Assembly: GCA_949130485.1 (NCBI GenBank)
Contig: OX422195.1
Span: 3,804,066 to 3,868,065, forward strand
DNA from: Agelas oroides
Taxonomy: Eukaryota; Porifera; Demospongiae; Agelasida; Agelasidae
Direction: 5' to 3'
Length of the DNA: 64,000 bases
Position 1 is the stretch's first letter. Every line of letters begins with the position of its first letter. Below the pieces are notes generated by a model. The model did no database searches. It worked only from the letters and a program-made list of their open reading frames with translations, and was not told the origin of the DNA. The position numbers and the translations under genes were made by a program. Shown one piece after another: positions 1 through 35,297 of the stretch.

Positions 1-443
1 TCCATTTGATGTGTACATTCATAATCTGATGTTTGTTTTCATTTTGGTATGAGTGGTTCAAAAAGAGTCTAGGTACGGTTGTGATTTTACCACTTGTACA
101 TATCGGGTACTTGTAAGTAACAATTTCAGGCCTGGAACAGCTAATACTTGACTAAACTATACAAAATGGGTATCAAACAGTTCCATTTGATGTGTACATT
201 CATAATCTGATGTTTGTTTTCATTTTGGTATGAGTGGTTCAAAAATAGTCCAGGTGCGGTTGTGATTTTACCACTTGTACATATCGGTTACTTGTAACTA
301 ACAATTTCAGGCCCGAAACAGCTAATACTTGACCAAACTATACAAAATGGGTATCAAACAGTTCCATTTGGTGTGTACAATCACAATCAATCACATATTA
401 TACCAATATTTCCATTGCATGACAAGCATCAGAGTCTGATCAT
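1..443. repeat. 181-bp satellite, end of array
   Basis: Two full copies of a 181-bp AT-rich unit (the TCCATTTGATGTGTACATTC start recurs at 1, 182 and 363) are followed by a truncated copy and a unique tail at 385-443 ending GTCTGATCATATA. The same unit and the same tail recur at 27329-31783, so this is the same repeat family seen from its right-hand end. The neighbouring 144-bp satellite starts abruptly at about 444. The left part lies outside the window. No coding potential is seen. Confidence 0.93.
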
Positions 444-1170
444 ATAGCACTGTGAGATTGGTGCAAGGGTGTTTATGAGTGGGAAAGACCTGATAACGCC
501 GTTTTAACCTCCGAGGAGGTGCTGTGAAGCAAGTGGAGGCCGGTTTAAGTGCTAGAGAAGATCGAGAAAGCTCTTTTCACCACTGTGGAAGCCCTGTGAG
601 GTTGGTGCAAGCCTGTTTATATGCGGGAAAGACCTGATAACACCGTTTCAACCTCCGAAGAGGTGCTGTGAAACATGTGGAGGCCTCTTTAAGTGCCAGA
701 GACGATCGAGAAAGCAGTTTTCACCACTGTGATGGCCTTGTGATGTTGGTTCAAGCCTGTTTATGTGCGGGAAAGAATGGATAAAAGCAGTTTTAACCTC
801 CAAGGAGGTGCTGTCAAGCACGAGGAGGCCTGTGGAAGTGCCAGAGCATATCGAAAAAGCAGTTTCACCGCTGTGGAGGCCCTGTGATGGTGGTGCAAGC
901 GTGTTTATGAGTGGGAAAGACCTGATAACACCGTTTTAACCTCCGAGGAGGTACTGTGAAGCTCGTTCAGGCCTGTTTAAGTGCCAGAGAAGATCGAGGA
1001 AACAGTTTTCACCACTGTGGAAGCACTGTGAGGTTGGTGCAAACCTGTTTATGTGCGGGAAAGACGTGATAACGCCGTTTTCACCTCCGAGGAGGTACTG
1101 TGAAGCTCGTTCAGTCCTGTTTAAGTGCCAGAGAAGATCGAGAAAGCATTTTTCACCTCTGTGGTGTCCT

Positions 1171-3768: not shown

Positions 3769-5263
3769 TGTGATGTTGGTGCAAGCCAGTTTATATGCGG
3801 GAAAGACCGGATAACGCCGTTTTAACCTCCGAGGAGGTGCTGTGAAGCACGTGGAAGTCGGTTTAAGTGCTAGAGACGATCGTGAAAGTATTTTTCACCT
3901 CTGTGGAAGCGGTGTGAGGTTGGTGCAAGCCTGTTTATGTGCGGGAAAGACCTGATAAAAGCAGTTTTAACCTCCCATGCGGTGCTGTGAAGCACGTGGA
4001 GGGCTGTTTAAGTACCAGAGAAGATCGAGGAAGCAGTTTTTACCACTGCGGTGGCCTTGTGATGTTGGTGCAAGCCAGTTTAGATGCGGGAAAGACCGGA
4101 TAACGCCGTTTTAACCTCAGAGGAGGTGCTGTGAAGCAAGTGGAGGCCGGTTTAAGTGTTAGAGAAGATCGAGAAAACAGTTTTCACCAATGTGGAAGCA
4201 CTGTGAGCTTGGTGCAAGCCTGTTTATGTGCGGGAAAGTCCTGATAACGCCGTTTTCACCTCCGAGGAGGAACTGTGAAGCTTGTTCATGCCTGTTTAAG
4301 TGCCAGAGAAGATCGAGAAAGCTGTTTTCACCACTGTGGACGCCCTGTGAGGTTGGTGCAAGCCTGTTTATGTGCGGGAAAGACCTGATAAAAGCAGTTT
4401 TAACCTCCTATGCGGTGCTATGAAGCACGTGGAGGCCTGTTTAATACCAGAGAAGATCGATAAAGCAGTTTTCACCACTGTGGAGGCCCTGTGATGTTGG
4501 TTCAAGTCTGTTTATGTGCAGGAAAGAATGGATAAAAGCAGTTTTAACCTCCGAGGTGCTGTGAAGCACGTGGAGGCCTTTGTAAGTGCTAGAGAATATC
4601 GAAAAAGCAGTTTTCACCGCTGTGGAAGCCCTGTGATGGTGGTGCAAGCGTGTTTATGAGTGGGGAAGACCTGATAAGACCGTTTTCACCTCCGAGGAGG
4701 TACTGTGAAGCTCGTTCAGGCCTGTTTAAGTGCCAGAGAAGATCGAGGAAACAGTTTTCACCACTGTGGAAGCACTGTGAGGTTGGTGCAAGCCTGTTTA
4801 TGTGCGGGAAAGACGTGATAACGCCGTTTTCACCTCCGAGGAGGTACTGTGAAGCTCGTTCAGTCCTGTTTAAGTGCCAGAGAATATCGAGAAAGCAGTT
4901 TTCTCTACTGTGATGGGCTTGTGATGTTGATTCAAGCCTGTTTATGTGCGGGAAACAATGGATAAAAGCAGTTTTAACCCCCGAGGAGGTGCTGTAAAGC
5001 ACGAGTAGGCCTGTGGAAGTGCCAGAGCATATCGAAAAAGCAGTTTTCACCGCTGTGGAGGCCCTGTGATGGTGGTGCAAGCGTGTTTATGAGTGGGAAA
5101 GACCTGATAACACCGTTTTCCCCTCCCAGGAGGTACTTTGAAGCTCGTTCAGGCCTGTTTAAGTGCCAGAGAAGATGGAGGAAACAGTTTTCACCACTGT
5201 GGAAGCACTGTGAGGTTGGTGCAAACTTGTTTATGTACGGGAAAGACCTGATAAAAGCAGTTT

Positions 5264-6310: not shown

Positions 6311-7063
6311 TCCTATGAGGTGCTGTGAAGCACCAGAGAAGATCGATAAAGCAGTTTTCACCGCTGTGGAGGCCCTTTGAGGTTGGTGTAAGCGTGTTTA
6401 TGAGTGGGAAAGACCGGATAACGCCGTTTTAACCTCGAGGAGGTGCTGCGAAGCACATGGAGGCCGGTTTATGTGCTTGAGAAGATCGAGAAAACAGTTT
6501 TCACCACTGTGGAAGCACTGTGAGGTTGTTGCAAGCCTGTTTATGTGCGGGAAAGTCCTGATAACGCCGTTTGCAACTCCGAGGAGGTACTGTGAAGCTT
6601 GTTCATGCCTGTTTAAGTGCCAGAGAAGATCGAGAAAGCTGTTTTCACCACTGTGGACGCCCTGTGAGGTTGGTGCAAGCTTGTTTATATGCGGAAAATA
6701 CTTGATAACACCGTTTTAACCTCCGAGGAGGTGCTGTGAAGCATGTGGAGGCCTGTTTAAGTACCAGAGACGATCGAGAAAGCAGTTTTCAACACTGTGG
6801 AGGCCCTGTGATGTTGGTGCAAGCGTGTTTATGAGTGGGAAAGACCTGATAACACCGTTTTCACCTCCGAGGAGGTACTGTGAAGCTCGTTCAGGCCTGT
6901 TTAAGTGCCAGAGAAGATCGAGGAAACAGTTTTCACCACTGTGGAAGCACTGTGAGGTTGGTGCAAGCCTGTTTATGTGCGGGAAAGACGTGATAACGCC
7001 GTTTTCACCTCCGAGGAGGTACTGTGAAGCTCGTTCAGTCCTGTTTAAGTGCCAGAGAAGATT

Positions 7064-7544
7064 CTTGAACAAGGGCATGCAGTCACTGGAAACTGTGCAA
7101 AAATTTGCTTGTAAAGTCTGTCTCAAGCAATGGGACTTGGACTATGACAGTATGTTGCAACTGCTCAACCTCCCCCGTCTGTCAGTTCGTCGTAAATATC
7201 TTAAGCTAACTGCAATGTACAATATTGTTAGTGGTCATATGGACTTCCCATCTAGTATCTTTGTACAAAGTAATTTACCATACCACCTTAATCGTACAAG
7301 TACGTTTAATTTTACTAGACCTTTTGCACATACTAATTACATGTATCACTCATTTGTACCTTCTGTAATCTCCTCCTGGAACAATTTGCCTGACTCAGTT
7401 AAATTATGTTCTATCTCCTCCTTTAAAAGATCCTTGTTGTATCACTTTGAGGCACATGTCTCACATTAGCTATCAGCTATACTCATGTTGCCTTTGTCAT
7501 TTATGACATAAATTTTATAGAAAAAAATAAATAAATTTTAAAAA
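7064..7544 (+). mobile_element. 5'-truncated non-LTR retrotransposon (CR1/Jockey-like 3' end)
   Basis: An insertion in a satellite unit, flanked by the 5-bp direct repeat AAGAT (7059-7063 and 7545-7549). It carries the last ~135 codons of a reverse-transcriptase ORF with the typical C-terminal pattern: SLETVQKFACK, then LPRLSVRRKYLKLTAMYNI, then SSWNNLPDSVK and SFKRSLLYHF, stop at 7467-7469. A ~70-bp 3' UTR ends in an A-rich AATAAATAAA-type tail. No catalytic RT or endonuclease domain is present, as expected for target-primed insertion that stopped early. The open frame runs upstream into the satellite only by chance. The clade is a guess from the C-terminal pattern. Confidence 0.9.
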
Positions 7545-12096: not shown

Positions 12097-15000
12097 GATG
12101 AGGTGCTCTGAATCATGTTGAGGCCTGTTAAAATGCTCGAGAAGATCGAGAAAACAGTTTTCACCGCTGTGGAAACCCTGTGAGGTTGGTGCAAGCCTGT
12201 TGATGCGCAGTAGAAACCTGATTACGCCGTTTTAACCTCCGAGGAGGTGTTGTGAATCATGTTGAGTCCTGTTAAAGTGCTAGAGAAGATCGTGAAAACA
12301 GTTTTCACCACTGTGGAGGCACTGTGAGGTTGGTGCAAGCCGGTTTATGTGCGGGAAAGAATTGATTACGCCGTTTTAACCTCCGAGGAGGTGCTGTGAA
12401 GCATGCGGAGGCCTGTTTAAGTGCCATAGAATATCCAGAGAGCAGTTTTCACCGCTGTGGAGGCCCTGTCAGATTGGTGCAACGCTGTTTATGAGCGGGA
12501 ACGACCTGATAATGCCGTTTTAACCTCCGAGCAAGTACTGTTAAGCACGTGCATGCCTGTTTAAGTGCCAGAGACGATCGAGAAAGCAGTTTTCACCACT
12601 GTGGAGGCACTATGAGGTTGGTGCAAGCCTGCTTATGTGCGGGAAAGACCGGATAACGCCGTTTTAATCTCCGAGGAGGTGCTGTGAAGCACTTGAAGGC
12701 CTGTTGAAGTGCTAGGGGAGTTCGAGAAAGCAGTTTACACCGCCGTGGAGACCCTGTGAGGTTGGTGCAAGCCTGTTTATGTGCAGTAAAAACCTGAATA
12801 CGCCGTTTTAAACTCCGATGGGGTGCTGGGAAGCTTGTGGAGGCCTGTTTAAGTGATAGAGAAGATCGAGAAACAGTTTTCACCACTGTGGAGGCACTGT
12901 GAGGTTGGTGCAAGCCGGTTTATGTGCGGGAAAGAATTGATTACGCCGTTTTAACCTCCGAGGAGGTGCTGTGAAGCATGCGGAGGCCTGTTTAAGTGCC
13001 ATAGAATATCCAGAGAGCAGTTTTCACCGCTGTGGAGGCCCTGTCAGATTGGTGCAACGCTGTTTATGAGCGGGAACGACCTGATAATGCCGTTTTAACC
13101 TCCGAGCAAGTACTGTTAAGCACGTGCATGCCTGTTTAAGTGCCAGAGACGATCGAGAAAGCAGTTTTCACCACTGTGGAGGCACTATGAGGTTGGTGCA
13201 AGCCTGCTTATGTGCGGGAAAGACCGGATAACGCCGTTTTAATCTCCGAGGAGGTGCTGTGAAGCACTTGAAGGCCTGTTGAAGTGCTAGGGGAGTTCGA
13301 GAAAGCAGTTTACACCGCCGTGGAGACCCTGTGAGGTTGGTGCAAGCCTGTTTATGCGCAGTAAAAACCTGAATACGCCGTTTTAAACTCCGATGGGGTG
13401 CTGGGAAGCTTGTGGAGGCCTGTTTAAGTGATAGAGAAGATCGAGGAACAGTTTTCACCACTGTGGAGGCCCTATGATGTTGGTGCAAGACTGTTTATGT
13501 ACGGGAAAGACTTGATAACGCCGTTTTAACCTCCGATGAGGTGCTCTGAATCATGTTGAGGCCTGTTAAAATGCTCGAGAAGATCGAGAAAACAGTTTTC
13601 ACCGCTGTGGAAACCCTGTGAGGTTGGTGCAAGCCTGTTGATGCGCAGTAGAAACCTGATTACGCCGTTTTAACCTCCGAGGAGGTGTTGTGAATCATGT
13701 TGAGTCCTGTTAAAGTGCTAGAGAAGATCGTGAAAACAGTTTTCACCACTGTGGAGGCACTGTGAGGTTGGTGCAAGCCGGTTTATGTGCGGGAAAGAAT
13801 TGATTACGCCGTTTTAACCTCCGAGGAGGTGCTGTGAAGCATGCGGAGGCCTGTTTAAGTGCCATAGAATATCCAGAGAGCAGTTTTCACCGCTGTGGAG
13901 GCCCTGTCAGATTGGTGCAACGCTGTTTATGAGCGGGAACGACCTGATAATGCCGTTTTAACCTCCGAGCAAGTACTGTTAAGCACGTGCATGCCTGTTT
14001 AAGTGCCAGAGACGATCGAGAAAGCAGTTTTCACCACTGTGGAGGCACTATGAGGTTGGTGCAAGCCTGCTTATGTGCGGGAAAGACCGGATAACGCCGT
14101 TTTAATCTCCGAGGAGGTGCTGTGAAGCACTTGAAGGCCTGTTGAAGTGCTAGGGGAGTTCGAGAAAGCAGTTTACACCGCCGTGGAGACCCTGTGAGGT
14201 TGGTGCAAGCCTGTTTATGTGCAGTAAAAACCTGAATACGCCGTTTTAAACTCCGATGGGGTGCTGGGAAGCTTGTGGAGGCCTGTTTAAGTGATAGAGA
14301 AGATCGAGAAACAGTTTTCACCACTGTGGAGGCCCTATGATGTTGGTGCAAGACTGTTTATGTACGGGAAAGACTTGATAACGCCGTTTTAACCTCCGAT
14401 GAGGTGCTCTGAATCATGTTGAGGCCTGTTAAAATGCTCGAGAAGATCGAGAAAACAGTTTTCACCGCTGTGGAAACCCTGTGAGGTTGGTGCAAGCCTG
14501 TTGATGCGCAGTAGAAACCTGATTACGCCGTTTTAACCTCCGAGGAGGTGTTGTGAATCATGTTGAGTCCTGTTAAAGTGCTAGAGAAGATCGTGAAAAC
14601 AGTTTTCACCACTGTGGAGGCACTGTGAGGTTGGTGCAAGCCGGTTTATGTGCGGGAAAGAATTGATTACGCCGTTTTAACCTCCGAGGAGGTGCTGTGA
14701 AGCATGCGGAGGCCTGTTTAAGTGCCATAGAATATCCAGAGAGCAGTTTTCACCGCTGTGGAGGCCCTGTCAGATTGGTGCAACGCTGTTTATGAGCGGG
14801 AACGACCTGATAATGCCGTTTTAACCTCCGAGCAAGTACTGTTAAGCACGTGCATGCCTGTTTAAGTGCCAGAGACGATCGAGAAAGCAGTTTTCACCAC
14901 TGTGGAGGCACTATGAGGTTGGTGCAAGCCTGCTTATGTGCGGGAAAGACCGGATAACGCCGTTTTAATCTCCGAGGAGGTGCTGTGAAGCACTTGAAGG

Positions 15001-16985
15001 CCTGTTGAAGTGCTAGGGGAGTTCGAGAAAGCAGTTTACACCGCTGTGGAGACCCTGTGAGGTTGGTGCAAGCCTGTTTATGTGCAGTAAAAACCTGAAT
15101 ACGCCGTTTTAAACTCCGATGGGGTGCTGGGAAGCTTGTGGAGGCCTGTTTAAGTGATAGAGAAGATCGAGAAACAGTTTTCACCACTGTGGAGGCCCTA
15201 TGATGTTGGTGCAAGACTGTTTATGTACGGGAAAGACTTGATAACGCCGTTTTAACCTCCGATGAGGTGCTCTGAATCATGTTGAGGCCTGTTAAAATGC
15301 TCGAGAAGATCGAGAAAACAGTTTTCACCGCTGTGGAAACCCTGTGAGGTTGGTGCAAGCCTGTTGATGCGCAGTAGAAACCTGATTACGCCGTTTTAAC
15401 CTCCGAGGAGGTGTTGTGAATCATGTTGAGTCCTGTTAAAGTGCTAGAGAAGATCGTGAAAACAGTTTTCACCACTGTGGAGGCACTGTGAGGTTGGTGC
15501 AAGCCGGTTTATGTGCGGGAAAGAATTGATTACGCCGTTTTAACCTCCGAGGAGGTGCTGTGAAGCATGCGGAGGCCTGTTTAAGTGCCATAGAATATCC
15601 AGAGAGCAGTTTTCACCGCTGTGGAGGCCCTGTCAGATTGGTGCAACGCTGTTTATGAGCGGGAACGACCTGATAATGCCGTTTTAACCTCCGAGCAAGT
15701 ACTGTTAAGCACGTGCATGCCTGTTTAAGTGCCAGAGACGATCGAGAAAGCAGTTTTCACCACTGTGGAGGCACTATGAGGTTGGTGCAAGCCTGCTTAT
15801 GTGCGGGAAAGACCGGATAACGCCGTTTTAATCTCCGAGGAGGTGCTGTGAAGCACTTGAAGGCCTGTTGAAGTGCTAGGGGAGTTCGAGAAAGCAGTTT
15901 ACACCGCCGTGGAGACCCTGTGAGGTTGGTGCAAGCCTGTTTATGCGCAGTAAAAACCTGAATACGCCGTTTTAAACTCCGATGGGGTGCTGGGAAGCTT
16001 GTGGAGGCCTGTTTAAGTGATAGAGAAGATCGAGGAACAGTTTTCACCACTGTGGAGGCCCTATGATGTTGGTGCAAGACTGTTTATGTACGGGAAAGAC
16101 TTGATAACGCCGTTTTAACCTCCGATGAGGTGCTCTGAATCATGTTGAGGCCTGTTAAAATGCTCGAGAAGATCGAGAAAACAGTTTTCACCGCTGTGGA
16201 AACCCTGTGAGGTTGGTGCAAGCCTGTTGATGCGCAGTAGAAACCTGATTACGCCGTTTTAACCTCCGAGGAGGTGTTGTGAATCATGTTGAGTCCTGTT
16301 AAAGTGCTAGAGAAGATCGTGAAAACAGTTTTCACCACTGTGGAGGCACTGTGAGGTTGGTGCAAGCCGGTTTATGTGCGGGAAAGAATTGATTACGCCG
16401 TTTTAACCTCCGAGGAGGTGCTGTGATGCATGCGGAGGCCTGTTTAAGTGCCATAGAATATCCAGAGAGCAGTTTTCACCGCTGTGGAGGCCCTGTCAGA
16501 TTGGTGCAACGCTGTTTATGAGCGGGAACGACCTGATAATGCCGTTTTAACCTCCGAGCAAGTACTGTTAAGCACGTGCATGCCTGTTTAAGTGCCAGAG
16601 ACGATCGAGAAAGCAGTTTTCACCACTGTGGAGGCACTATGAGGTTGGTGCAAGCCTGCTTATGTGCGGGAAAGACCGGATAACGCCGTTTTAATCTCCG
16701 AGGAGGTGCTGTGAAGCACTTGAAGGCCTGTTGAAGTGCTAGGGGAGTTCGAGAAAGCAGTTTACACCGCCGTGGAGACCCTGTGAGGTTGGTGCAAGCC
16801 TGTTTATGCGCAGTAAAAACCTGAATACGCCGTTTTAAACTCCGATGGGGTGCTGGGAAGCTTGTGGAGGCCTGTTTAAGTGATAGAGAAGATCGAGAAA
16901 CAGTTTTCACCACTGTGGAGGCCCTATGATGTTGGTGCAAGACTGTTTATGTATGGGAAAGACTTGATAACGCCGTTTTAACCTC
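12097..16985. repeat. 863-bp higher-order repeat array (6 x ~144 bp)
   Basis: The marker GATGAGGTGCTCTGAATC recurs at about 12097, 13535, 14398, 15261 and 16124. The last four are exactly 863 bp apart. The first interval is 1438 bp because of an extra 575-bp (four-unit) duplication at about 12300-13450. Copies are nearly identical, differing at scattered sites such as GTGCAG/GCGCAG and GAGAAACAG/GAGGAACAG. This is much more homogeneous than flanking units and suggests recent unequal exchange or amplification. A repeated minus-strand 106-codon ORF is a by-product of the period. Confidence 0.94.
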
Positions 16986-22204: not shown

Positions 22205-22849
22205 ACTGCGTTCCTTGTCAAATCCAGCACAAGTACGTCAACTGCTGTATGAAAGTAGCAACATATGCAATCGTTTGGGAATCAATCGATCGTCAAGTTC
22301 TCTACGGAAGTAGAATAACCGCAGCTGCATGCCAACTTCACGTGCTGTAGCTGTTGAACTTCTGTTGACGTAATCGCTATGAATATTCTATTCTAACAAA
22401 ATGGCGTATAGCAGCAAGCATAAGCGTGGGGTTACCTGAGAATCGCCGATTAATTCGACTTCTTTCTTTGAGAACGATGAGTGGTGGGTACAATACCCAG
22501 TAATTTATGCTGATCTTTCGCGTTTGAATCGTTGTAATAGCTTCAGCCGTTGTCGTGCTATCGTGGTGAGCAAAAGAAGAAGTCAGAAGATAGACGATTT
22601 GCCTTTTTTAGCGACTTGATGTCAGGTATACTTAGCGATGCTTTCCAGCAAATTTAACGATCCTGTTGCCCATGGAAGCACTCGATAATGTCTGATATGG
22701 CTCATGGAGGCCGTTGACTTATCTAACGCGGACATTTCGAGCGTGTCATTTGTGCACTTTGAATGTGGCCGCCATTTTTTTTCGGGGTCATCCCTACATA
22801 TGGCGTACTACCGTACGCCATGATGTGGTCACCGCGTTCAGAGGGTTAA

Positions 22850-24960
22850 CCTCCTATGTGGTGCTGTGAAGCACGTGGAGGCCTGTTTAATACCAGATAA
22901 GATCGATAAAGCAGTTTTCACCACTGTGGAGGCCCTGTGATGTTGGTTCAAGCCTGTTTATGTGCGGGAAGGAATGGATAAAACCAGTTTTAACCTCCGA
23001 GGAGGTGCTGTGAAGCACGTGGAGTCCTGTGTAAGTGCCAGAGCATATCGAAAAAGCAGTTTTCACCGCTGTGGAGGCCCTGTGAGGTTGGTGAAAGCGT
23101 GTTTATGAGTGGGAAAGTCCTGATAACACCGTTTTCATCTCCGAGGTGGTACTGTAAAGCTCGTTCATGCCTGTTTAAGTGCCAGAGATGATCGAGAAAG
23201 CTGTTTTCACCACTGTGGACGTCCTGTGAGGTTGGTGCAAGCATGTTTATATGCGGGAAAGACCTGACAACACCGTTTTAACCTCCGACGAGGTGCTGTG
23301 AAACATGTGGAGGCCTCTTTAAGTGCCAGAGACGATCGAGAAAGCAGTTTTCACCACTGTGGAGGCCGTGTGAGGTTGGTGCAAGCCTGTTTATGTGCGG
23401 GAAAGACCTGATAAAAGCAGTTTTAACCTCTTATGCGGTGCTGTGAAGCACTTGGAGGCCTGTTTAATACCAGAGAAGATAGATAAAGCAGTTTTCACCA
23501 CTGTGGAGGCCCTGTGATGTTGGTTCAAGCCTGTTTATGTGCGGGAAAGAATGGATAAAAGCAGTTTTAACCTCCGAGGAGGTGCTGTGAAGCATGCAGA
23601 GGCCTGTTTAAGTGCCATAGATGATCCAGAAAGCAGTTTTCACCACTACGGACGCCCTGTAAAGTTGGTGCAAACCTGTTTATATCAGGGAAAGACCTGA
23701 TAACACCGTCCGAGGAGGTGCTGTGAAGCATGTGGAGGCCTGTTTAAGTTCCTGAGTAAATGGAGAAAGCCGCTGTGGAAGGACTGTGAGGTTGGTGCAA
23801 GCCTGTTTATGTGCAGGAGAGACTTGACAAAGCCGTTTTAACCTCCGAGGTGCTGTGAAGCACGTGGAGGCCTGTGTAAGTGCCAGAGCATATCGAAAAA
23901 GCGGTTTTCACCGTTGTGGAGGTCCTGTGATGGTGGTTAAAGCGTGTTTATGAGTGCGAAAATCCTGATAACACCGTTTTAACCTCCGAGGAGGTGCTGT
24001 GAAACATGTGGAGACCTCTTTAAGTGCCAGAGACGATCGAGAAAGCAGTTTTCACCACTGTGGAGGCCGTGTGAGGTTGGTGCAAGCCCGTTTATGTGCG
24101 GGAAAGACCTGATAAAAGCAGTTTTAACCTCCTGTGCGGTGCTGTGAAGCACGTGGAGGCCTGTTTAATAGCAGAGAAGATCGATAAAGCAGTTTTCACC
24201 ACTGTAGAGGCCCTGTGATGTTGGTTTAAGCATGTTAATGTGCGGGAAAGAATGGATAAAAGCAGTTTTAACCTCCGAGGAGGTGCTGTGAAGCACGTGG
24301 AGGCCTGTTTAAGTGCCAGAGCATATCGAAAAAGCAGTTTTCACCGCTGTGGAGGCCCTGTGATGGTGGTGCAAGCGTGATTATAAGAGGGAAAGACCTG
24401 ATAATGCCGTTTTCACCACCGAGGAGGTACTGTGAAGCTCGTTCAGGCCTGTTTAAGTGCCAGAGAAGATAGAGAAATCTGTTTTCACCACTGTGGACGC
24501 CCTGTGAGGTTGGTGCAAGCCTGTTTATATGCGGGAAAGACCTGATAACACCGTTTTAACATCACAGGAGGTGCTGTGAAACATGTGGAGGCCGGTTTAA
24601 GTACCAGAGAAGATCGATAAAGCAGTTTTCACCATTGTGGAGGCCCTGTGATGTTGGTTCAAGCCTGTTTATGTGCGGGAAAGAATGGATAAAAGCAGTT
24701 TTAACTTCCGAGGAGGTGCTGTGAAGCACGTGGAGGCCTGTTTAAGTGCCAGAGCATATCGAAAAAGCAGTTTTCACCGCTGTGGAGGCCCTGTGATGGT
24801 GGTGCAAGCGTGATTATAAGTGGGAAAGACCTGATAACGCCGTTTTCACCACCGATGAGGTACTGTGAAGCTCGTTCAGGCCTGTTTAAGTGCCAGAGAA
24901 GATAGAGAAATCTGTTTTCACCACTGTTGACGCCCTGTGAGGTTGGTGCAAGCCTGTTTA
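22850..24960. repeat. 144-bp satellite block B
   Basis: Continuation of the satellite to the right of the piggyBac-like insertion, resuming with CCTCCTATGTGGTGC directly after the TTAA. About 15 diverged units. It ends at GCCTGTTTA, where the 7.2-kb element is inserted. No gene is seen. Confidence 0.94.
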
Positions 24961-24962
24961 TA

Positions 24963-25210
24963 CACAGAAAAAAAAAAGTGTGCTAATCTGACACATAAAG
25001 TGTGTCAAAAGTGATGTCTCCAGTTTTGACACACCTACACGCATGTCAAATTGTTAGGTGTGTCAAAACTACACATGTGCTAACTGGACAGTGTGCCAAA
25101 TTACTAGTGTGCTATTCAGCAAGTGTGCTAAATAACAAGTGTGTTATTCTACCAATGTGTCAAAATTGGTGTGCAAAATTAGCAGTGTGTCAACTGACAT
25201 GCAGCTGACC
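24963..25210. repeat. Left terminus with subterminal GTGTGYYAA motifs
   Basis: Within ~240 bp there are about a dozen copies of GTGTGCTAA, GTGTGTCAAAA, GTGTGCCAAATT and GTGTGTTATT, mostly on the plus strand. Arrays of this kind are commonly transposase-binding sites in CACTA and hAT elements. The binding role is inference. Confidence 0.8.
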
Positions 25211-27328
25211 CCTCACTTAGTGGGTGGAGCTTTTACATGGAATTTCCAGTGAAACACTCTTGACTGTAAGCAAAATATAATTGTGACATACACTGAGTTG
25301 AAAACATGAATATACTAAAACAAGCAAACAATAGTTATGCTATAACTTACGTTACAGCATTTTATACAAATATGTATGTGATTGAAGTACTACATTGTAT
25401 AAAAATGTGTCAATATACTCTATACATACAAAAATGGCATTCAACTATGCATATAATATACATTTTATGTACCTATCAATCAGTTAGTTGAGTTCAATTG
25501 TTAACATCCATCTGTGAAAGAATAGCACATGCAATAATTATTCATATACTAATCAGGTCATGCGATGGAGGAACTGCAATCATTCTATTATTCCATTATA
25601 CAAGTCATGTGGGGCATCATACTAGCGCATTGAACTTCCCGCCCTAGCAATGCTCCTACCAGTAGCATTCATTTCTCACAGAGGTCTTCACTAACCCTTT
25701 GCATAGTCTAAAGTTGAAGTTAAACGCCCGAAACAGGTCTGTAGAAATGTAATTTTTGTATAATTGCTTTCCTTCAATTGCCTTCCAACATGGCAGCATG
25801 TGTACTGAAAATATTTCGAAAGTGTAGCAGCTATCATTTCAAATCAAATTCCTCTACCGGGGTATGTGAAGAAATCACACAGTCAGCATCTCAGAAAGGC
25901 TCATCTTGTTTGTTGTTATTCATGCATACATGGAAATCCCTGAACGTAATCACCAGGGATAAGGCTAGATGTATTAAACATTGTAACCACTCACTTGGCT
26001 ATGAGCCTCTTCAAGCAGCTGGGGCCTCTGTAGTCAGTTGGTGTAGTGAGGAGAAGTAAACAGGCCTGGAAGGTATAGTGGAAGATGGTCATGATACAAA
26101 CTAGGTTTGCAAATTTAAGAGTACAAAAATGCAAACACTGGACAATTCCCAACCAGAAGAGTCATCCACTCAGCAGGTACATTTCGGAAAATACAAGGCC
26201 TTGTGTACAACTTATGTTCTCCGCACCTTATTAAGAAATGTACTATGGCTCCCCCCACCCCCAATCCAGTGCAGAACAAATTAAGGAGGAAGACCTAAAT
26301 GCAAATTCAGACAACTGCAGTTGTAATAAGTATATAGTACAAGCTTACTTACCAGCAGTTTAAACCACTTGCAGGGCAGCGTGGAGATTGAACCTTGTGG
26401 CCTGGGTACTTCTGAACAATGAGGCATTAATAGCCTGGAGACAAAGGTCCTGTGTATGGATATACAAGTGATGTGAATTAATCATCTGGGGCTTTTAAAT
26501 AAAAGCTTTTGTTCTCCCTATCTCATACCTTTCCTCTCTGTGCATATACAGCCTCCAGAACCTCCCTTCAGAACATGTCTTTGGGAAGGCTGCAGACTCA
26601 CTCTGTGTACCTATCACCACCACGATCTCTCAGACAAGATCAGTATAGAGGAAGACTAACTGGTCTAGCTAGTCTGGTAGTTGGTGGAAGGATGAGAAGG
26701 GAACAAGCAGGGAGGTATAAGGTAGAAAGAAAGAAATGACACATTCAACAATATTTCTTTAGCGACTTTACTACTGCAGTACAACTCTATAGCTAGCTAT
26801 ATGTTTCCTTACGCGGAAATAGCTACTTTAGCTATTTTATATGTAGTAAAAAAAAAAGTACATTTATAAATTCATTGACTTTCAGCCACTTCTTACCACG
26901 GTGGTGTGAAGTCTCAGCGATGTAACCGCTCCGCACTCCTTGTCACCGAAAGACATCGCTCCCGTGGGACATCGAACATGTAAGCCCTCTCCTCCACTAA
27001 GCTCAGGTACCATTTTGTTGCTGGCGGAATTTTCACGAACGGATCATATCAAAGAAGACGAACTTGAAGTGTACGATCGAAGTGAGAAAATGCGAAATGG
27101 CGCGTGCCATGTTGCGCACGCGTACAAGGACTGAGCCACGCCCCTGTCATTATTAGCCCCACCCTGTTTGCGAGGCTGGGTCCTGTACTTCTAAGTATAA
27201 GTTTCTGTAACAAAACAGACTCTACATACACGCTACTACCTGTCATGATGGTTGTTCTCTCCAGACTAAAGCTACAGGAGTTGGAAAAGTTATTGCATGA
27301 TCATGTATGTTCATATATGTAATATGAA
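25211..27328. other. Unique interior of the 7.2-kb element, no recognised gene
   Basis: AT-rich, low-repeat sequence. The largest open frames (25778-26059 plus, 93 codons; 26509-26739 plus, 76 codons) lack any recognisable domain, and I do not call them genes. A short GC-richer patch (~26880-27180) contains promoter-like GAAAATGCGAAATGGCGCG. It may be captured host sequence. Confidence 0.5.
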
Positions 27329-30300
27329 TCAGGCCTGAAACAGCTAATACTAGACCAAACTATACAAAATGGGTATCAAACAGTTCCATTTGATGTGTAC
27401 CTTCATAATCTGATGTTTGTTTTCATTTTGGTATGAGTGGTTCAAAAACAGTCTAGGTACAGTTGTGATTTTACCACTTGTACATATCGGTTAGTTGTAA
27501 CTAACAATTTCAGGCCCGAAACAGACAATACTTGACCAAGCCAGACAAAATGGGTATTAAACAGTTCCATTTGGTGTGTACATTCATAATCTGGTGTTTG
27601 TTTTCATTTTCGAGTAAGTGTTCTGAAAATTGTGTGGGTACGGTTGTGGTTTTACCAACATATCGGTTACTTGTAACTAACAATTTCAGGCCCGAAACAG
27701 CTAATACTTGACTAAACTATACAAAATGGGTATCAAACAGTTCCATTTGATGTGTACCTTCATAATCTGATGTTTGTTTTCATTTTGGTATGAGTGGTTC
27801 AAAAACAGTCTAGGTACAGTTGTGATTTTACCACTTGTACATATCGGTTAGTTGTAACTAACAATTTCAGGCCCGAAACAGACAATACTTGACCAAGCCA
27901 GACAAAATGGGTATTAAACAGTTCCATTTGGTGTGTACATTCATAATCTGGTGTTTGTTTTCATTTTCGAGTAAGTGTTCTGAAAATTGTGTGGGTACGG
28001 TTGTGGTTTTACCAACATATCGGTTACTTGTAACTAACAATTTCAGGCCCGAAACAGCTAATACTTGACTAAACTATACAAAATGGGTATCAAACAGTTC
28101 CATTTGATGTGTACATTCATAATCTGATGTTTGTTTTCATTTTGGTATGAGTAGTTCAAAAAGAGTCTAGGTACGGTTGTGATTTTACCACTTGTACGTA
28201 TCGCTTAATTACTTGTAACTAACAATTTCAGGCCCGAAACAGCTAATACTTGACCAAACTATACCAAACGGGTATCAAACAGTTCCATTTGATGTGTACA
28301 TTCATAATCTGATGTTTGTTTTCATTGTGGAGTAAGTGTTCTGAAAATTGTCTGGGTGCGGTTGTGGTTTAATTTACCACTTGTACATATCTGTTACTTG
28401 TAACTAACAATATCATCCATGAAACAGACAACACTTGACCAAACCAGACAAAATGGGTATCAAACAGTTCCATTTGGTGTGTACATTCATAATCTGATGT
28501 TTGTTTTCATTTTGGAGTAAGTGTTCTGAAAATTGTGTGGGTACGGTTGTGGTTTTACCAACGTATCGGTTACTTGTAACTAACAATTTCAAGCCCAAAA
28601 CAACTAATACTTGATCAAACTATACAAAATGGGTATCAAACAGTTCCATTTGATGTGTACATTCATAATCTGATGTTTGTTTTCATTTTGGTATGAGTGG
28701 TTCAAAAAGAGTCTAGGTACGGTTGTGATTTTACAACTTGTACATATCGGTTACTTGTAACTAACAATTTCAGGTCCGAAACAGCTAATACTTGACCAAA
28801 CTATACAAAATGGGTACCAAACACTTCCATTTGATGTGTACATTCATAATCTGATGTTTGTTTTCATTTTGGTATGAGTGGTTCAAAAAGAGTCTAGGTA
28901 CGGTTGTGATTTTACAACTTGTACATATCGCTTACTTGTAACTAACAATTTCAGGCCCGAAACAGCTAATACTTGACCAAACTATACCAAACGGATATCA
29001 AACAGTTCCATTTGATGTGTACATTCATAATCTGATGTTTGTTTTCATTTTGGAGTAAGTGTTCTGAAAATTGTCTGGGTGCGGTTGTGGTTTTACCACT
29101 TGTACATATCTGTTACTTGTAACTAACAATATCATCCATGAAACAGACAACACTTGACCAAACCAGACAAAATGGGTATCAAACAGTTCCATTTGGTGTG
29201 TACATTCATAATCTGATGTTTGTTTTCATTTTGGTATGAGTGGTTCAAAAAGAGTCTAGGTACGGTTGTGATTTTACAACTTGTACATATTGGTTACTTC
29301 TAACTAACAATTTCAGGTCCGAAACAGCTAATACTTGACCAAACTATACAAAATGGGTACCAAACACTTCCATTTGGTGTGTACATTCATAATCTGATGT
29401 TTGTTTTCATTTTAGAGTAAGTGTTCTGAAAATTGTCTGGATGCGGTTGTGGTTTTACCAACGTATCGGTTACTTGTAACTAACAATTTCAGGCCCGAAA
29501 CAGCTAATACTTGACTAAACTATACAAAATGGGTATCAAACAGTTCCATTTGATGTGTACATTCATAATCTGATGTTTGTTTTCATTTTGGTATGAGTAG
29601 TTCAAAAAGAGTCTAGGTACAGTTGTGATTTTACCACTTGTACGTATCGCTTACTTGTAACTAACAATTTCAGGCCCGAAACAGCTAATACTTGACCAAA
29701 CTATACCAAATGGGTATCAAACAGTTCTATTTGATGTGTACATTCATAATCTGATGTTTGTTTTCATTTTGGAGTAAGTGTTCTGAAAATTGTCTGGGTG
29801 CGGTTGTGGTTTTACCACTTGTACATATCTGTTACTTGTAACTAACAATATCATCCATGAAACAGACAACACTTGACCAAACCAGACAAAATGGGTATCA
29901 AACAGTTCCATTTGGTGTGTACATTCATAATCTGATGTTTGTTTTCATTTTGGAGTAAGTGTTCTGAAAATTGTGTGGGTACGGTTGTGGTTTTACCAAC
30001 GTATCGGTTACTTGTAACTAACAATTTCAGGCCCGAAACAGCTAATACTTGACCAAACTATACAAAATGGGTATCAAACAGTTCCATTTGATGTGTACAT
30101 TCATAATCTGATGTTTGTTTTCATTTTGGAGTAAGTGTTCTGAAAATTGTCTGGGTGCGGTTGTGGTTTTACCACTTGTACATATCTGTTACTTGTAACT
30201 AACAATATCATCCATGAAACAGACAATACTTGACCAAACCAGACAAAATGGGTATCAAACAGTTCCATTTAGTGTGTACATTCATAATCTGATGTTTGTT

Positions 30301-31783
30301 TTCATTTTGGAGTAAGTGTTCTGAAAATTGTCTGGGTGCGGTTGTGGTTTTACCACTTGTACATATCTGTTACTTGTAACTAACAATATCATCCATGAAA
30401 CAGACAATAATTGACCAAACCAGACAAAATGGGTATCAAACAGTTCCATTTGGTGTGTACATTCATAATCTGATGTTTGTTTTCATTTTGGTATGAGTGG
30501 TTCAAAAAGAGTCTAGGTACGGTTGTGATTTTACCACTTGTACATATCGGTTACTTGTAACTAACAATTTCAGGCCCGAAACAGCTAATACTTGACCAAA
30601 CTATACCAAATAGGTATCAAACACTTCCATTTGATGTGTACGTTCATAATCTGATGTTTGTTTTCATTTTGCAGTAAGTGTTCTGAAAATTGTCTGGGTG
30701 CGGTTGTGGTTTTACCACTTGTACATATCTGTTACTTGTAACTAACAATATCATCCATGAAACAGACAATACTTGACCAAACCAGACAAAATGGGTATCA
30801 AACACTTCCATTTGGTGTGTACATTCAAAATCTGATGTTTGTTTTCATTTTGGAGTAAGTATTCTGAAAATTGTCTGGGTACGGTTGTGGTTTTACCAAC
30901 GTATTGGTTAGTTGTAACTAACAATTTCAGGCCCGAAACAGCTAATACTTGACCAAACTATACAAAATGGGTATCAAACAGTTCCATTTGATGTGTACAT
31001 TCATAATCTGATGTTTGTTTTCATTTTGGTATGAGTGGTTCAAAAAGAGTCTAGGTACGGTTGTGATTTTACCACTTGTACATATCGGTCACTTGTAACT
31101 AACAATTTCACGCTTGAAACAGCTAATACTTGACCAAACTATACAAAATGGGTATCAAACAGTTCCATTTGATGTGTACATTCATAATGTGATGTTTGTT
31201 TTCATTTTGGTATGAGTGGTTCAAAAAGAGTGTAGGTGCGGTTGTGATTTTACCACTTGTACATATCGGTTACTTGTAACTAACAATTTCAGGCCCGAAA
31301 CAGCTAATACTTGACCAAACTATACAAAATGAGTATCAAACACTTCCATTTGGTGTGTACATTCAAAATCTGATGTTTGTTTTCATTTTGGAGTAAGTGT
31401 TCTGAAAATTGTCTGGGTACGGTTGTGGTTTTACCAACGTATCGGTTAGTTGTAACTAACAATATCATCCCTGAAGCAGCTAATACTTGACCAAACTATA
31501 CAAAATGGGTATCAAACAGTTCCATTTGATGTGTACATTCATAATCTGATGTTTGTTTTCATTTTGGTATGAGTGGTTCAAAAATTGTCCAGGTGAGGTT
31601 GTGATTTTACCACTTGTACATATCGGTTACTTGTAATTAACAATTTCAGGCCCGAAACAACTAATACTTGACCAAACTATACAAAATGGGTATCAAACAG
31701 TTCCATTTGATGTGTACATTCACAATCAATCACATATTATACCACTATTTCCATTGCATGACAAGCATCCGGGTCTGATCATA
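27329..31783. repeat. 181-bp satellite array, ~24 copies
   Basis: Tandem copies of the 181-bp unit also seen at 1-443. Two main variants exist: one with GGTATGAGTGGTTCAAAAAG and one with GGAGTAAGTGTTCTGAAAAT. Around 27350-28070 they alternate as a 361-bp dimer. The array begins mid-unit at TCAGGCCTGAAACAG and ends with the same non-repeated tail (GTCTGATCATATA) as the array at 1-443. The whole array lies inside the 7.2-kb element. Confidence 0.95.
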
Positions 31784-31784
31784 T

Positions 31785-32141
31785 ACACAAAATATCACAA
31801 GTGTGTCCCATGCAGTTGTTGTGTTAGTGTGCTGATCATGATGAGAAACTAGCACACGTGGTGTGTCATACAGTTTTGGTGATGAGGAACTAGCACATGT
31901 AGTGTGTAATACAGTTTTGGTGATGAGGAACTAGCACATGTGGTGTGTCAAACCAAGGGTGCTAAAAAGGAAATTAGTGCTTGCATGTGCTAATATGTTA
32001 TGTAGCACAGCAGAACATGCCATTTTAGCACACTCCAGTGCTGGATTTGACCGTTTAGTGTGTTAAAGATATACAATAGCACACTCTGTGCTTATTTGGC
32101 ACACCAGTTTTACCCAAATAGCACACCAGTTTTTTTCTGTG
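31785..32141. repeat. Right terminus with inverted subterminal motifs
   Basis: Mirror image of the left end: TAGCACAC, TTGGCACACC and TGTGCTAA motifs recur, mostly in reverse orientation, up to AGCACACCAGTTTTTTTCTG and the TA duplication. A near-tandem GATGAGGAACTAGCACATGT repeat is seen at 31880-31940. Confidence 0.8.
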
Positions 32142-32143
32142 TA

Positions 32144-35100
32144 TGCGGGAAAGACCTGATAACACCGTTTTAACATCACAGGAGGTGCTGTGAAACATGT
32201 GGAGGCCGGTTTAAGTACCAGAGAAGATCGATAAAGCAGTTTTCACCATTGTGGAGGCCCTGTGATGTTCGTTCAAGCCTGTTTATTTTTTTAATTTTTA
32301 TTTTTTTTATACGAATTTGTAATATACCGGGGGGTATATATATTAGATATGTGCGGGAAAGAATGGATAAAAGCAGTTTTAACCTTCGAGGAGGTGCTGT
32401 GAAGCACGTGGAGACTTGTGTAAGTGCAAGAGCATATCGAAAAAGCCACTGTGGAGGCCCTGTGATGGTGGTGCAAGCGTGTTTATTGGTGGGAAACACC
32501 TGATAACGCCGTTTTCACCTCCGAGGAGGTACTGTGAAGCTCGTTCATGCCTGTTTAAGTGCCAGAGAAGATCGAGAAAGCAGTTTTCACCACTGTGGTG
32601 GCCTTGTGATGTTGGTGCAAGCCTGTTTATGTGCGGGAAAGCCCTGATAAAGCAGTTTTGACCTCCTATGAGGTGCTGTGAAGCACGTGGAGGCCTGTGT
32701 AAGTGCCAGAGCACATCGAAAAAGCAGTTTTCACCGCTGTGGAGGCCCTGTGAAGTTGGTGCAAGCGTGTTTATGAGTGGGAAAGACCTGATAACACCGT
32801 TTTAACCTCCGAGAAGGTGCTGTGAAACATGTGGATGCCTCTTTAAGTACCGGAGACGATCCAGAAAGCAGTTTTCACCACTGTGGAGGCCGTGTGAGGT
32901 TGGTGCAAGCCTATTTATGTGCGGGAAAGACCTGATAAAGCAGTTTTAACCTCCCAGGAGGTGCTGTGAAGCACGTGGAGGCCTGTTTAAGTACCAGAGA
33001 AGATCGGTAAAGCAGTTTTGAACGCTGTGGAGGCCCGGTGAGGTTGGTGCAAGCGTGTTCATGAGTGGATAAGACCTGATAACGCCGTTTAAACCTCCGA
33101 GGAGGTGCTGCGAAGCACGTGGAGGCCGGTTTAAGTGCTAGAGAAGATCGAGAAAACAGTTTTCACCACTGTGGAAGCACTGTGAGGTTGTTGCAAGCCT
33201 GTTTATGTGCGGGAAATACTTGATAAACCAGTTTCATCCTCCGATGTGGTGCTGTGAAGCACATGGAGGCCATTTTAAGTACCACAGAAGATCGAGAAAG
33301 CTGTTTTCACCACTGTGGAGGCCCTGTGAGGTTGATGCAAGCCTGTTTATGTGCGGGAAAGACTTGATAACGCCGTTTTAAACTCCAAGGAGGTGCTGTG
33401 AAGCACGTGGAGGTCTGTTTAAGTACCGGAGAAGATCGAGAAAGCTGGTTTCACCGCTGTGGAGGCCCTGTGAGATTGGTACAAGCCTGTTTATGTGCGG
33501 GAAAGACCTGAAAACGCCGTTTTAATCTCAGAGGAGGTACTGTTAAGCACGTGCAGACCTGTTTAAGTGCCAGGGAATATCGAGAAAGCAGTTTTCATCA
33601 ATGTGGAGGGTCTGTGAGGTAGGTGCAAGCCTCTTTATGTGCGGGAAAGACGTGGCAAAGCCGTTTTAACCTCCAAGGAGGTGCTGTGAAGCATGTGGAG
33701 GCCTGTTTAAGTGCCAGAGAAGATCGCGAAAGCAGTTTTCACCACTGTGGAGGCCCTGTGAGGTTGGTGCAAGACTGTTTATGTGTGGGAAAGACTTGAT
33801 AAAGCCGTTTTAACCTCTGAGGAGGTGCTGTGAAGCACGTGGACGGCTGTTTAAGTGCCACAGACGATCGAGAAAGCAGTTTTCACCACTGTGGAAGCAC
33901 TGTCAAGTTGGTGCAAGCCTGTTTATGTGCGGGAAAGACCTGATAACGCCGTTTTCACCTCCGAGGAGGTACTGAGAAACTCGTTCTGGCCTGTTTAAGT
34001 GCCAGAGATGATCGAGGAAACAGTGTTCACCACTGCGGAAGCACTGTGAGGTTGGTGCAAGCCTGTTTAGTGCGGGAAAGTCCTGATAACGCCGTTTTCA
34101 ACTCCGAGGAGGTACTGTGAAGCTCGTTCAGGCCTGTTTAAGTGCCAGAGAAGATCGAGATATCTGTGTTCACCACTGTGGACGCCCTGTGTGGTTGGTG
34201 CAAGCACGTTTATATGCGGGAAAGACCTGATTACACCGTTTTAACATCCCGGGAGGTGCTGTGAAACATATGGAGGCCGGTTTAAGTGCTAGAGAAGATC
34301 GAGAAAACAGTTTTCACCACTGTGGAAACACTGTCAGGTTGGTGCAAGCCTGTTTATGTGCGGGAAAGAATGGATAAAAGCAGTTTTAACCTCCGAGGAG
34401 GTGCTGTGAAGCACGTGGAGGCCTGTGTAGGTGCCAGAGCATATCGAAAAAGCAGTTTTCACCGCTGTGGAGGCCCTGTGATGGTGGTGCAACCGTGTTT
34501 ATGAGTGGGAAAGAATGGATAAAAGCAGTTTTAACCTCCTATGCGGTGCTGTGAAGCACATGGAGGCCTGTTTAATACCAGAGAAGATCGATAAAGCAGT
34601 TTTCACCACTGTGGAGGCCCTGTGATGTTGGTTCAAGCCTGGTTTTGTGGGGGAAAGAATGGATAAAAGCAGTTTTGACCTCCGAGGAGGTGCTGTGAAC
34701 CACGTGGAGGCCTGTGTAAGTGCCAGAGCATATCGAAAAAGCAGTTTTCACCGTTGTGGAGGCCCTGTCATGGTGGTGCAAGCGTGTTTATGAGTGGGAA
34801 AGACCTGATAACACCTTTTTAACCTCCGAGGAGGTGCTGTGAATCAAATGGAGGCCGGTTTAAGTGCTAGAGAAGATCGAGAAAACAGTTTTCACCACTG
34901 TGGAAGCACTGTGAGGTTTGTGCAAGCCTATTTATGTGCGGGAAAGACCTGATAACGCCGTTTTAACCTCCGAGGAGGTGCTGTGAAGCACGTGGAGGCC
35001 TGTTTAAGTACCAGAGAAGATCGAGAAAGCTGGTTTCACCGCTGTGAAGGCCCTGTGAGATTGGTACAAGCCAGTTTATGTGCGAGAAAGACCTGATAAC

Positions 35101-35297
35101 GCCGTTTTAACCTCCGAGGAGGTACTGTTAAGCACGTGGAGGCCGGTTTAAGTGCCCGAGAAGATCGAGAAAGCAGTTTTCATCACTGTGGAGGGTCTGT
35201 GAGGTTGGTGCAAGCCTGTTTATGTGCGGGAAAGACCTGATAACGCCGTTTTAATCTCAGAGGAGGTACTGTTAAGCACGTGCGGACCTGTTTAAGT
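32144..35297. repeat. 144-bp satellite block C
   Basis: The satellite resumes exactly after the right TA of the 7.2-kb element and runs, with diverged units, to about 35297, where it stops inside a unit (CTGTTTAAGTTAACACG). One 66-bp insert interrupts it. No gene is seen. Confidence 0.94.
32284..32349 (-). mobile_element. 66-bp retrotransposon-tail-like insert
   Basis: Foreign sequence splits GCCTGTTTA/TGTGCGGG of a satellite unit. Read on the minus strand it contains ATATATACCCCCCGGTATAT and then an A-rich end (ATAAAAATTAAAAAAA), like a severely truncated, reverse-oriented LINE or SINE 3' end. Too short to classify. Confidence 0.55.

Follow-up and report, generated by a model that had tools for sequence, protein, structure and literature searches.

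Several transposable elements are known to carry satellite-like tandem repeats. The CACTA-like element Jozin of Chenopodium quinoa is described with an array of 32.5 x 171 bp near its 3' end, which takes up 5.55 kb of a 16.5-kb element (PMC8978399), and a CACTA-derived satellite is reported in Chenopodium (PMC7320549). Among animals, the CACTA element SmTRC1 of Schistosoma mansoni has a tandem-repeat region towards its 3' end, and 2-bp duplications are given for 7 of 14 copies (PMC1636069). The miniature element miDNA4 of Xenopus, which belongs to the Tc1/mariner superfamily, holds a satellite as one monomer or as a variable-number array (PMC9659126, PMC12628747), while the central satellite-like arrays of Helitrons and Helentrons, e.g. 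in oysters, are described as dispersed by transposition (PMC12628747). Here, we describe an element of this general kind in a stretch of 64,000 bp from the sponge Agelas oroides, which is called the window below and corresponds to C13:3804066-3868065 of the 259.3-Mb, 141-contig genome searched. The element is composed of a left module, an array of 181-bp units and a right module (Table 1). It is probably a copy of a recently active family of non-autonomous DNA transposons, most like CACTA/EnSpm (CMC clade).

Compared with these systems, the present element resembles Jozin in its CACTA-like character, in the similar unit length and size of the internal array, in the position of the array near the 3' end and in its occurrence in several elements. 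However, Jozin is found in a plant, its elements hold Transposase_21 and 3-bp duplications are given for CACTA there (PMC8978399), whereas the 21 copies read here are non-coding, lie in an animal genome, are flanked by 2-bp duplications and include near-identical sister copies. SmTRC1 shares the animal host, the place of the tandem repeats and the duplication size, but encodes a transposase and has ends that begin with CCC rather than CAC (PMC1636069). The likeness to miDNA4 lies in the lack of autonomy and the variable array, and Helitrons and Helentrons differ in being rolling-circle elements that make no target duplication (PMC9659126).

The outer ends of the window element are CACAGAAAAAAA...TTTTTTTCTGTG, bordered by TA on both sides; it opens with CACAGAAAAAAAAAAGTGTGCTAA and closes with TAGCACACCAGTTTTTTTCTGTG. 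When the element and one TA are removed in silico, the host 144-bp repeat becomes continuous again, and the joined flanks match window positions 24138-24672 with 97% identity over 536 bp spanning the junction. Several matches span the junction; this one ranks first, and the runner-up has 91.6% identity. The boundaries 24963 and 32141 proposed in the initial annotation are therefore exact, and the empty site that it placed at 24519-24530 falls inside this match, at the insertion point. The 181-bp satellite that it reported within the unit was recovered by tandem-repeat analysis, and the dense subterminal motifs also stand: GTGTGYYA was counted over both strands nine times in the left 240 bp and eight times in the right 400 bp, compared with means of 0.44 (maximum 3) and 0.37 (maximum 4) in 1000 dinucleotide shuffles, and not once in the middle module and the array. 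No open frame of more than 104 codons is present in the left module of the window copy, and the two left-module frames that were scanned (25745-26056 and 26910-27131) gave no Pfam match. The Rfam scan of the window returned 0 matches, and neither the modules of the element nor the remaining window gave a convincing match to the 181-bp unit.

The same ends recur across the genome. With the left end (24963-25200) as query, the best 40 of 95 candidates scored were all 99-100% identical, and the best 40 of 109 obtained with the right end (31740-32142) were 97-100% identical. The left-end pattern occurs at 70 places genome-wide (reversed control, 0), and a joint pattern for either end, allowing no more than two mismatches, gives 152 ends (control, 0). 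Among the 100 ends listed, all have 0 mismatches; 86 of them pair inward to form 43 units, from 937 bp to 19,243 bp long with a median of 7496, and 14 are unpaired. Twenty whole copies were fetched, each with 200 bp per side, and the 937-bp copy was added later. In all 20, the left module, the array and the right module are found in identical order and orientation. In the alignment of 22 copies, every copy has the termini CACAG...CTGTG and the ends lie on average 0.8% from the consensus. As judged from these sequences, the family is evidently young and recently active.

Some copies depart from this plan. L018 and L031 have in common an extra stretch of about 0.6 kb inside the left module, and L028 (C2:7790380-7797584) has nine units preceded by about 2.3 kb of other sequence (element positions ~2353-4690), in which no open frame of 115 codons was found between the left module and the array. 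L020 and L028 show small losses near the left end. L036 (2420 bp) has lost the inner half of the left module and keeps four units, while the 937-bp copy, which bears a TG duplication, has kept 592 bp at its left end and 303 bp at its right end, together with a remnant of the array. A second copy, with its left end at C13:3798252, lies about 31 kb upstream of the window element in the same host repeat and lacks the final part of its right module. On another contig, two family left ends in like orientation are only 158 bp apart (C3:10125969 and C3:10126127), which suggests a nested or duplicated end.

The most direct evidence for movement of the array comes from two pairs of sister copies. L021 on C1 and L033 on C2 differ by one mismatch in 9379 aligned bases, and L018 on C1 and L031 on C2 by one mismatch in 6184, in both cases without gaps and with identical unit-length series within the pair. 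When the 40 flanks of 20 copies were compared, no flank of one copy matched that of another; the sole match was between the two sides of L027, a copy that is itself inside a repeat. Since these near-identical pairs lie on different chromosomes with unrelated flanks, the array has moved whole, and the shared unit series indicates that arrays of 36 and 15 units moved with their length unchanged. Consequently, the left module, the satellite array and the right module have evidently transposed as a single piece, which, together with the constant modules of the 20 copies, bears out the earlier proposal of a transposable unit that moves a satellite array.

A 2-bp target-site duplication is present in all 24 copies having both flanks, while a chance match of dinucleotides would be expected at 6.6% per site. 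The duplicated sequence is TA in 13 copies, TG in 5, CA in 2, AG in 2, TT in 1 and CG in 1. Pyrimidine-purine duplications make up 21 of the 24, compared with 25% of flanking dinucleotides (p ~2e-10). TA is a favoured target, not an obligatory one. The initial annotation described the insertion as TA-flanked; as a strict rule, TA-specific targeting is refuted by the six kinds of duplication.

A source of transposase was sought with Transposase_21 (PF02992). Of the 25 matches in the genome, 18 exceed the curated cut-off and 8 are in stop-free frames of 380-978 codons, while the control genomes, whose make-up is not shown, gave 0/14. The match near C2:15554613 lies 16.5 kb from an orphan right end and scores 27.7 bits against a cut-off of 28.6. 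The Transposase_21-like gene at this place (L038, C2:15552800-15557800) has a 627-codon frame and, by eye, an upstream zinc-finger-like exon, with relatives at C7:2696477 (a 98% identical stretch) and C2:6858577. The orphan right end is part of an old copy that shares about 90% identity with the window copy and breaks off after about six units, and the 9 kb fetched around the gene contain no family ends. Two C7 stretches match only the outer parts of the gene, and no CACAG end is seen where the similarity stops. Variant ends were also searched for. The pattern CACAGAAAAAANNNNGTGTGD occurs at 1 place, and CACAGN{4,14}GTGTGYCAA at 167 places, compared with 52 for the reversed control; among the 100 of these 167 places listed, most are other repeats, plus one miniature relative of 210 bp (L051, C9:6359845-6360054) that has the family's termini, is flanked by a TA duplication and lacks the satellite. 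Used as a query, this relative returned known copies and old relatives. About half of the same 100 rows belong to a separate dispersed repeat with an end beginning CACAGTTACACTG (e.g. C2:10891198), one copy of which lies 2.5 kb from a Transposase_21 fragment.

Three traits of CACTA/EnSpm elements are found in the family, that is, CAC..GTG terminal inverted repeats (22/22 aligned copies; 152 ends genome-wide), a target duplication of 2-3 bp that has no fixed sequence (2 bp in 24/24, six dinucleotides), and subterminal short direct and inverted repeats (9 and 8 GTGTGYYA). This combination agrees with the accounts of CACTA/EnSpm in PMC12730594 and PMC8978399, apart from the 3-bp duplications given for plants in the latter. 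The CMCT clade is characterised in PMC12730594 by mostly CA..TG ends and 2-5 bp duplications, with CAC..GTG for EnSpm. As in satellite-bearing DNA transposons, the array is internal in 20/20 fetched copies, and it moved intact twice. The CACTA/EnSpm superfamily is thus likely, but not proven, because none of the 25 PF02992 matches lies inside the 43 paired units. Several points weigh against this assignment. Its support comes from the termini, the size of the duplications and the subterminal repeats, and not from a protein. The PF02992 match nearest to a paired unit is 134 kb away; it should be noted that the paired units were drawn from the first 100 of the 152 ends and that most PF02992 matches were not inspected individually. 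The window copy and the 20 fetched copies have no open frame of more than 125 codons, and no transposase was found in three very long copies sampled in pieces (other long copies, at C1:3943486 and C8:3542724, were not fetched). The autonomous copy between the same ends that the initial annotation had suggested looking for was therefore not found in these sets. The gene at C2:15554613 shows no link to the orphan right end nearby, since that end is part of an old broken copy and the stretches of the gene contain no family ends. Besides, the animal CACTA elements cited in PMC1636069 start with CCC rather than CAC, which has slightly lowered our confidence. Finally, we infer cut-and-paste movement from the superfamily, excision itself not having been observed.

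In the mechanism proposed for the family, a transposase of CACTA type, supplied from elsewhere in the genome, would bind the subterminal GTGTGYYA repeats, cut at CACAG/CTGTG and insert the element at a 2-bp staggered cut, with the 181-bp array riding inside as a passenger. The length of the array would change among copies via unequal exchange or repair-linked slippage, and the array could pass unchanged through a round of transposition.

Other explanations should be weighed against a CACTA/EnSpm-like transposon. The window element sits in tandem repeats, and tandem arrays recombine, so the spread of the copies might be due not to transposition but to segmental duplication, or to ectopic exchange or gene conversion among satellite arrays. 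However, the precise 2-bp duplications in 24/24 copies, the dissimilar flanks of different copies, the exact empty site and the near-identical copies on different chromosomes leave this with practically no probability, and segmental duplication as such was rejected on the last point together with the unrelated flanks. Helitrons and Helentrons have neither terminal inverted repeats nor target duplications, and were rejected because the element has both. A TA-targeting element of Tc1/mariner type carrying a satellite, or one from another lineage specific to TA, for instance PHISTA or ESTA of fungi, would fit the TA duplicated in 13 of the 24 copies, including the window copy. But the other 11 exactly duplicate TG, CA, AG, TT or CG, and long subterminal repeat blocks are atypical of Tc1/mariner. 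Since only 13 of 24 duplications are TA, Tc1/mariner is therefore excluded, and the wider set of TA-specific elements is highly improbable. There is somewhat more to be said for another superfamily with 2-bp duplications (Mirage, Plavaka, or a relative of PIF/Harbinger-ISL2EU) in place of CACTA/EnSpm proper, in that such duplications occur in several lineages according to PMC12730594, no transposase links the family to EnSpm, and the known animal CACTA ends of PMC1636069 begin with CCC. This assignment is nevertheless rather unlikely, as EnSpm is the best fit to the CAC..GTG ends with subterminal direct and inverted repeats, the ends given for Plavaka are TGT..ACA or CATCA..TGATG (PMC12730594), and Transposase_21 does occur in the genome, where the transposases of other superfamilies, PHIS included, were not searched for.

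The array itself varies widely, from 4 to 36 units per copy (counted with a fuzzy anchor in 21 copies, the window included). In the 19.2-kb copy at C2:7890905-7910147, the three 3-kb pieces sampled (9.0 of 19.2 kb) all consist of array and hold 17, 17 and 16 units, from which the whole copy is estimated to hold roughly 90. Two further copies sampled in pieces, C8:4779348-4795104 and C9:7148914-7161045, have other sequence within the array, which shows Gypsy-like frames by eye in the latter. Over 466 units, mean identity is 91.1% within copies versus 90.7% between copies, and with L031 and L033 excluded the best partner of a unit is in another copy in 184 cases, in the same copy in 172 and tied in 61. 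The strongest self-repeat offset, that is, the periodicity of the array, also varies among copies. We infer that the arrays were inherited with the element and then separately rearranged, probably by unequal exchange or repair.

Where did the repeat come from? A 28-base core of the array has 1481 exact matches genome-wide (607 + 874; control, 0). The first 100 of them, which were listed, all come from C1, up to 9.7 Mb; four paired copies contain 96 of these, and 4 are outside. As the core occurs 383 times in 22 copies, or about 17 per copy, some 75 copies (152 ends) would account for about 1300 sites; long and old copies can hold the remaining sites, though some may lie in free arrays elsewhere. 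The old relative L054, with a right module 82% identical to that of the window (about 18% diverged), also has the array at 81-86% identity, while L053, with a right module also 82% identical, has one short array piece only, about 1 kb away. The 181-bp repeat thus seems to be the element's own internal component. In our reading, the family probably acquired it in a single old branch, and nothing so far points to a free host satellite among the listed sites on C1 (up to 9.7 Mb). The alternative that the element captured a host satellite which existed first as free arrays, and now disperses it, would agree with the array-less 210-bp relative, in which case the array is possibly an addition of one lineage, and with the 4 listed sites outside the listed paired copies. 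However, it is made unlikely by the 96 sites inside copies, by a genome-wide count not far above that expected from the elements, by the lack of any long free array among those met, and by L054, L053 having at most a trace. Therefore, the dispersal of satellites proposed in the initial annotation holds in so far as the element moves the array, and does not in so far as the satellite appears internal and was not seen being picked up from the host. As to function, the array may be more than a passenger and may help the family to persist, for example if it nucleates heterochromatin or gives rise to small RNAs and so conceals the element, or if it determines the length and topology of the element for transposition. 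Among the 22 end-aligned copies, 20 have at least nine units, and the other two (four units and none) are deletion derivatives. This idea is doubtful, since a small array or none at all was enough for these two derivatives and the 210-bp relative to insert or survive.

In the window, the host 144-bp repeat with its 433-bp higher-order units covers 450-24961 and 32143-35297, and is interrupted at 32286-32350, close to the right end of the element, by a short AT-rich insertion. At 12593-16946, an open frame of 108 codons is repeated, mostly every 863 bp, which therefore indicates a longer higher-order unit there. The 249-codon frame at 6720-7469 has no Pfam match, though by eye its second half resembles the C-terminal tail of a LINE reverse transcriptase. 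A neighbouring gene gives weak spectrin-repeat matches below the curated cut-off, which suggest an animal genome.

Table 1. Coordinates of the element, its parts and related features in the window.
Feature	Position	Strand	Basis
Whole element, 7179 bp, non-autonomous, CACTA/EnSpm-like	24963..32141	+	Ends and duplication; ends shared with other copies
Target-site duplication TA, left copy	24961..24962	.	Flank comparison
Target-site duplication TA, right copy	32142..32143	.	Flank comparison
Left terminal inverted repeat CACAGAAAAAAA; 3 bases on, GTGTGCTA	24963..24974	+	End pattern and alignment
Right terminal inverted repeat: reverse complement of CACAGAAAAAAA, then CTG, then GTGTGCTA	32130..32141	-	End pattern and alignment
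Left subterminal block, 9 GTGTGYYA over both strands	24963..25202	+	Motif count versus shuffles
Left module, 2366 bp	24963..27328	+	Common to other copies
181-bp tandem array, 24.5 copies, unit spacings 176, 181 and 185 bp	27329..31727	+	Tandem-repeat analysis
Right module, 414 bp; 8 GTGTGYYA in last 400 bp	31728..32141	+	Motif count
41-bp tandem repeat inside right module	31839-31950	.	Tandem-repeat analysis
Empty site: neighbouring host-repeat stretch without the element, 97% over 536 bp	24138..24672	+	Alignment of joined flanks
Host 144-bp repeat array (433-bp higher-order unit) holding the insertion; resumes after 32143	22846..24961	+	Repeat analysis
Tail of second element copy; right module broken off, then host 144-bp repeat	1..450	+	End searches and alignment

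Satellite-bearing CACTA elements have already been published (PMC8978399), and the present family is a well-documented new case; it cannot be called undescribed, because the literature search was not aimed at these exact ends. What is distinctive here is the quality of the case, with the array in 20/20 fetched copies and near-identical sister insertions. It provides a clear natural example in which a 36-unit array within a 9.4-kb element has evidently been moved intact between chromosomes by a DNA transposon with terminal inverted repeats, as supported by the duplications, the empty site and the near-identical sister copies. Furthermore, the copies are young and their arrays vary in length and periodicity, so that the family could serve to time array change between transposition events, a rate that is hard to measure in ordinary satellites.

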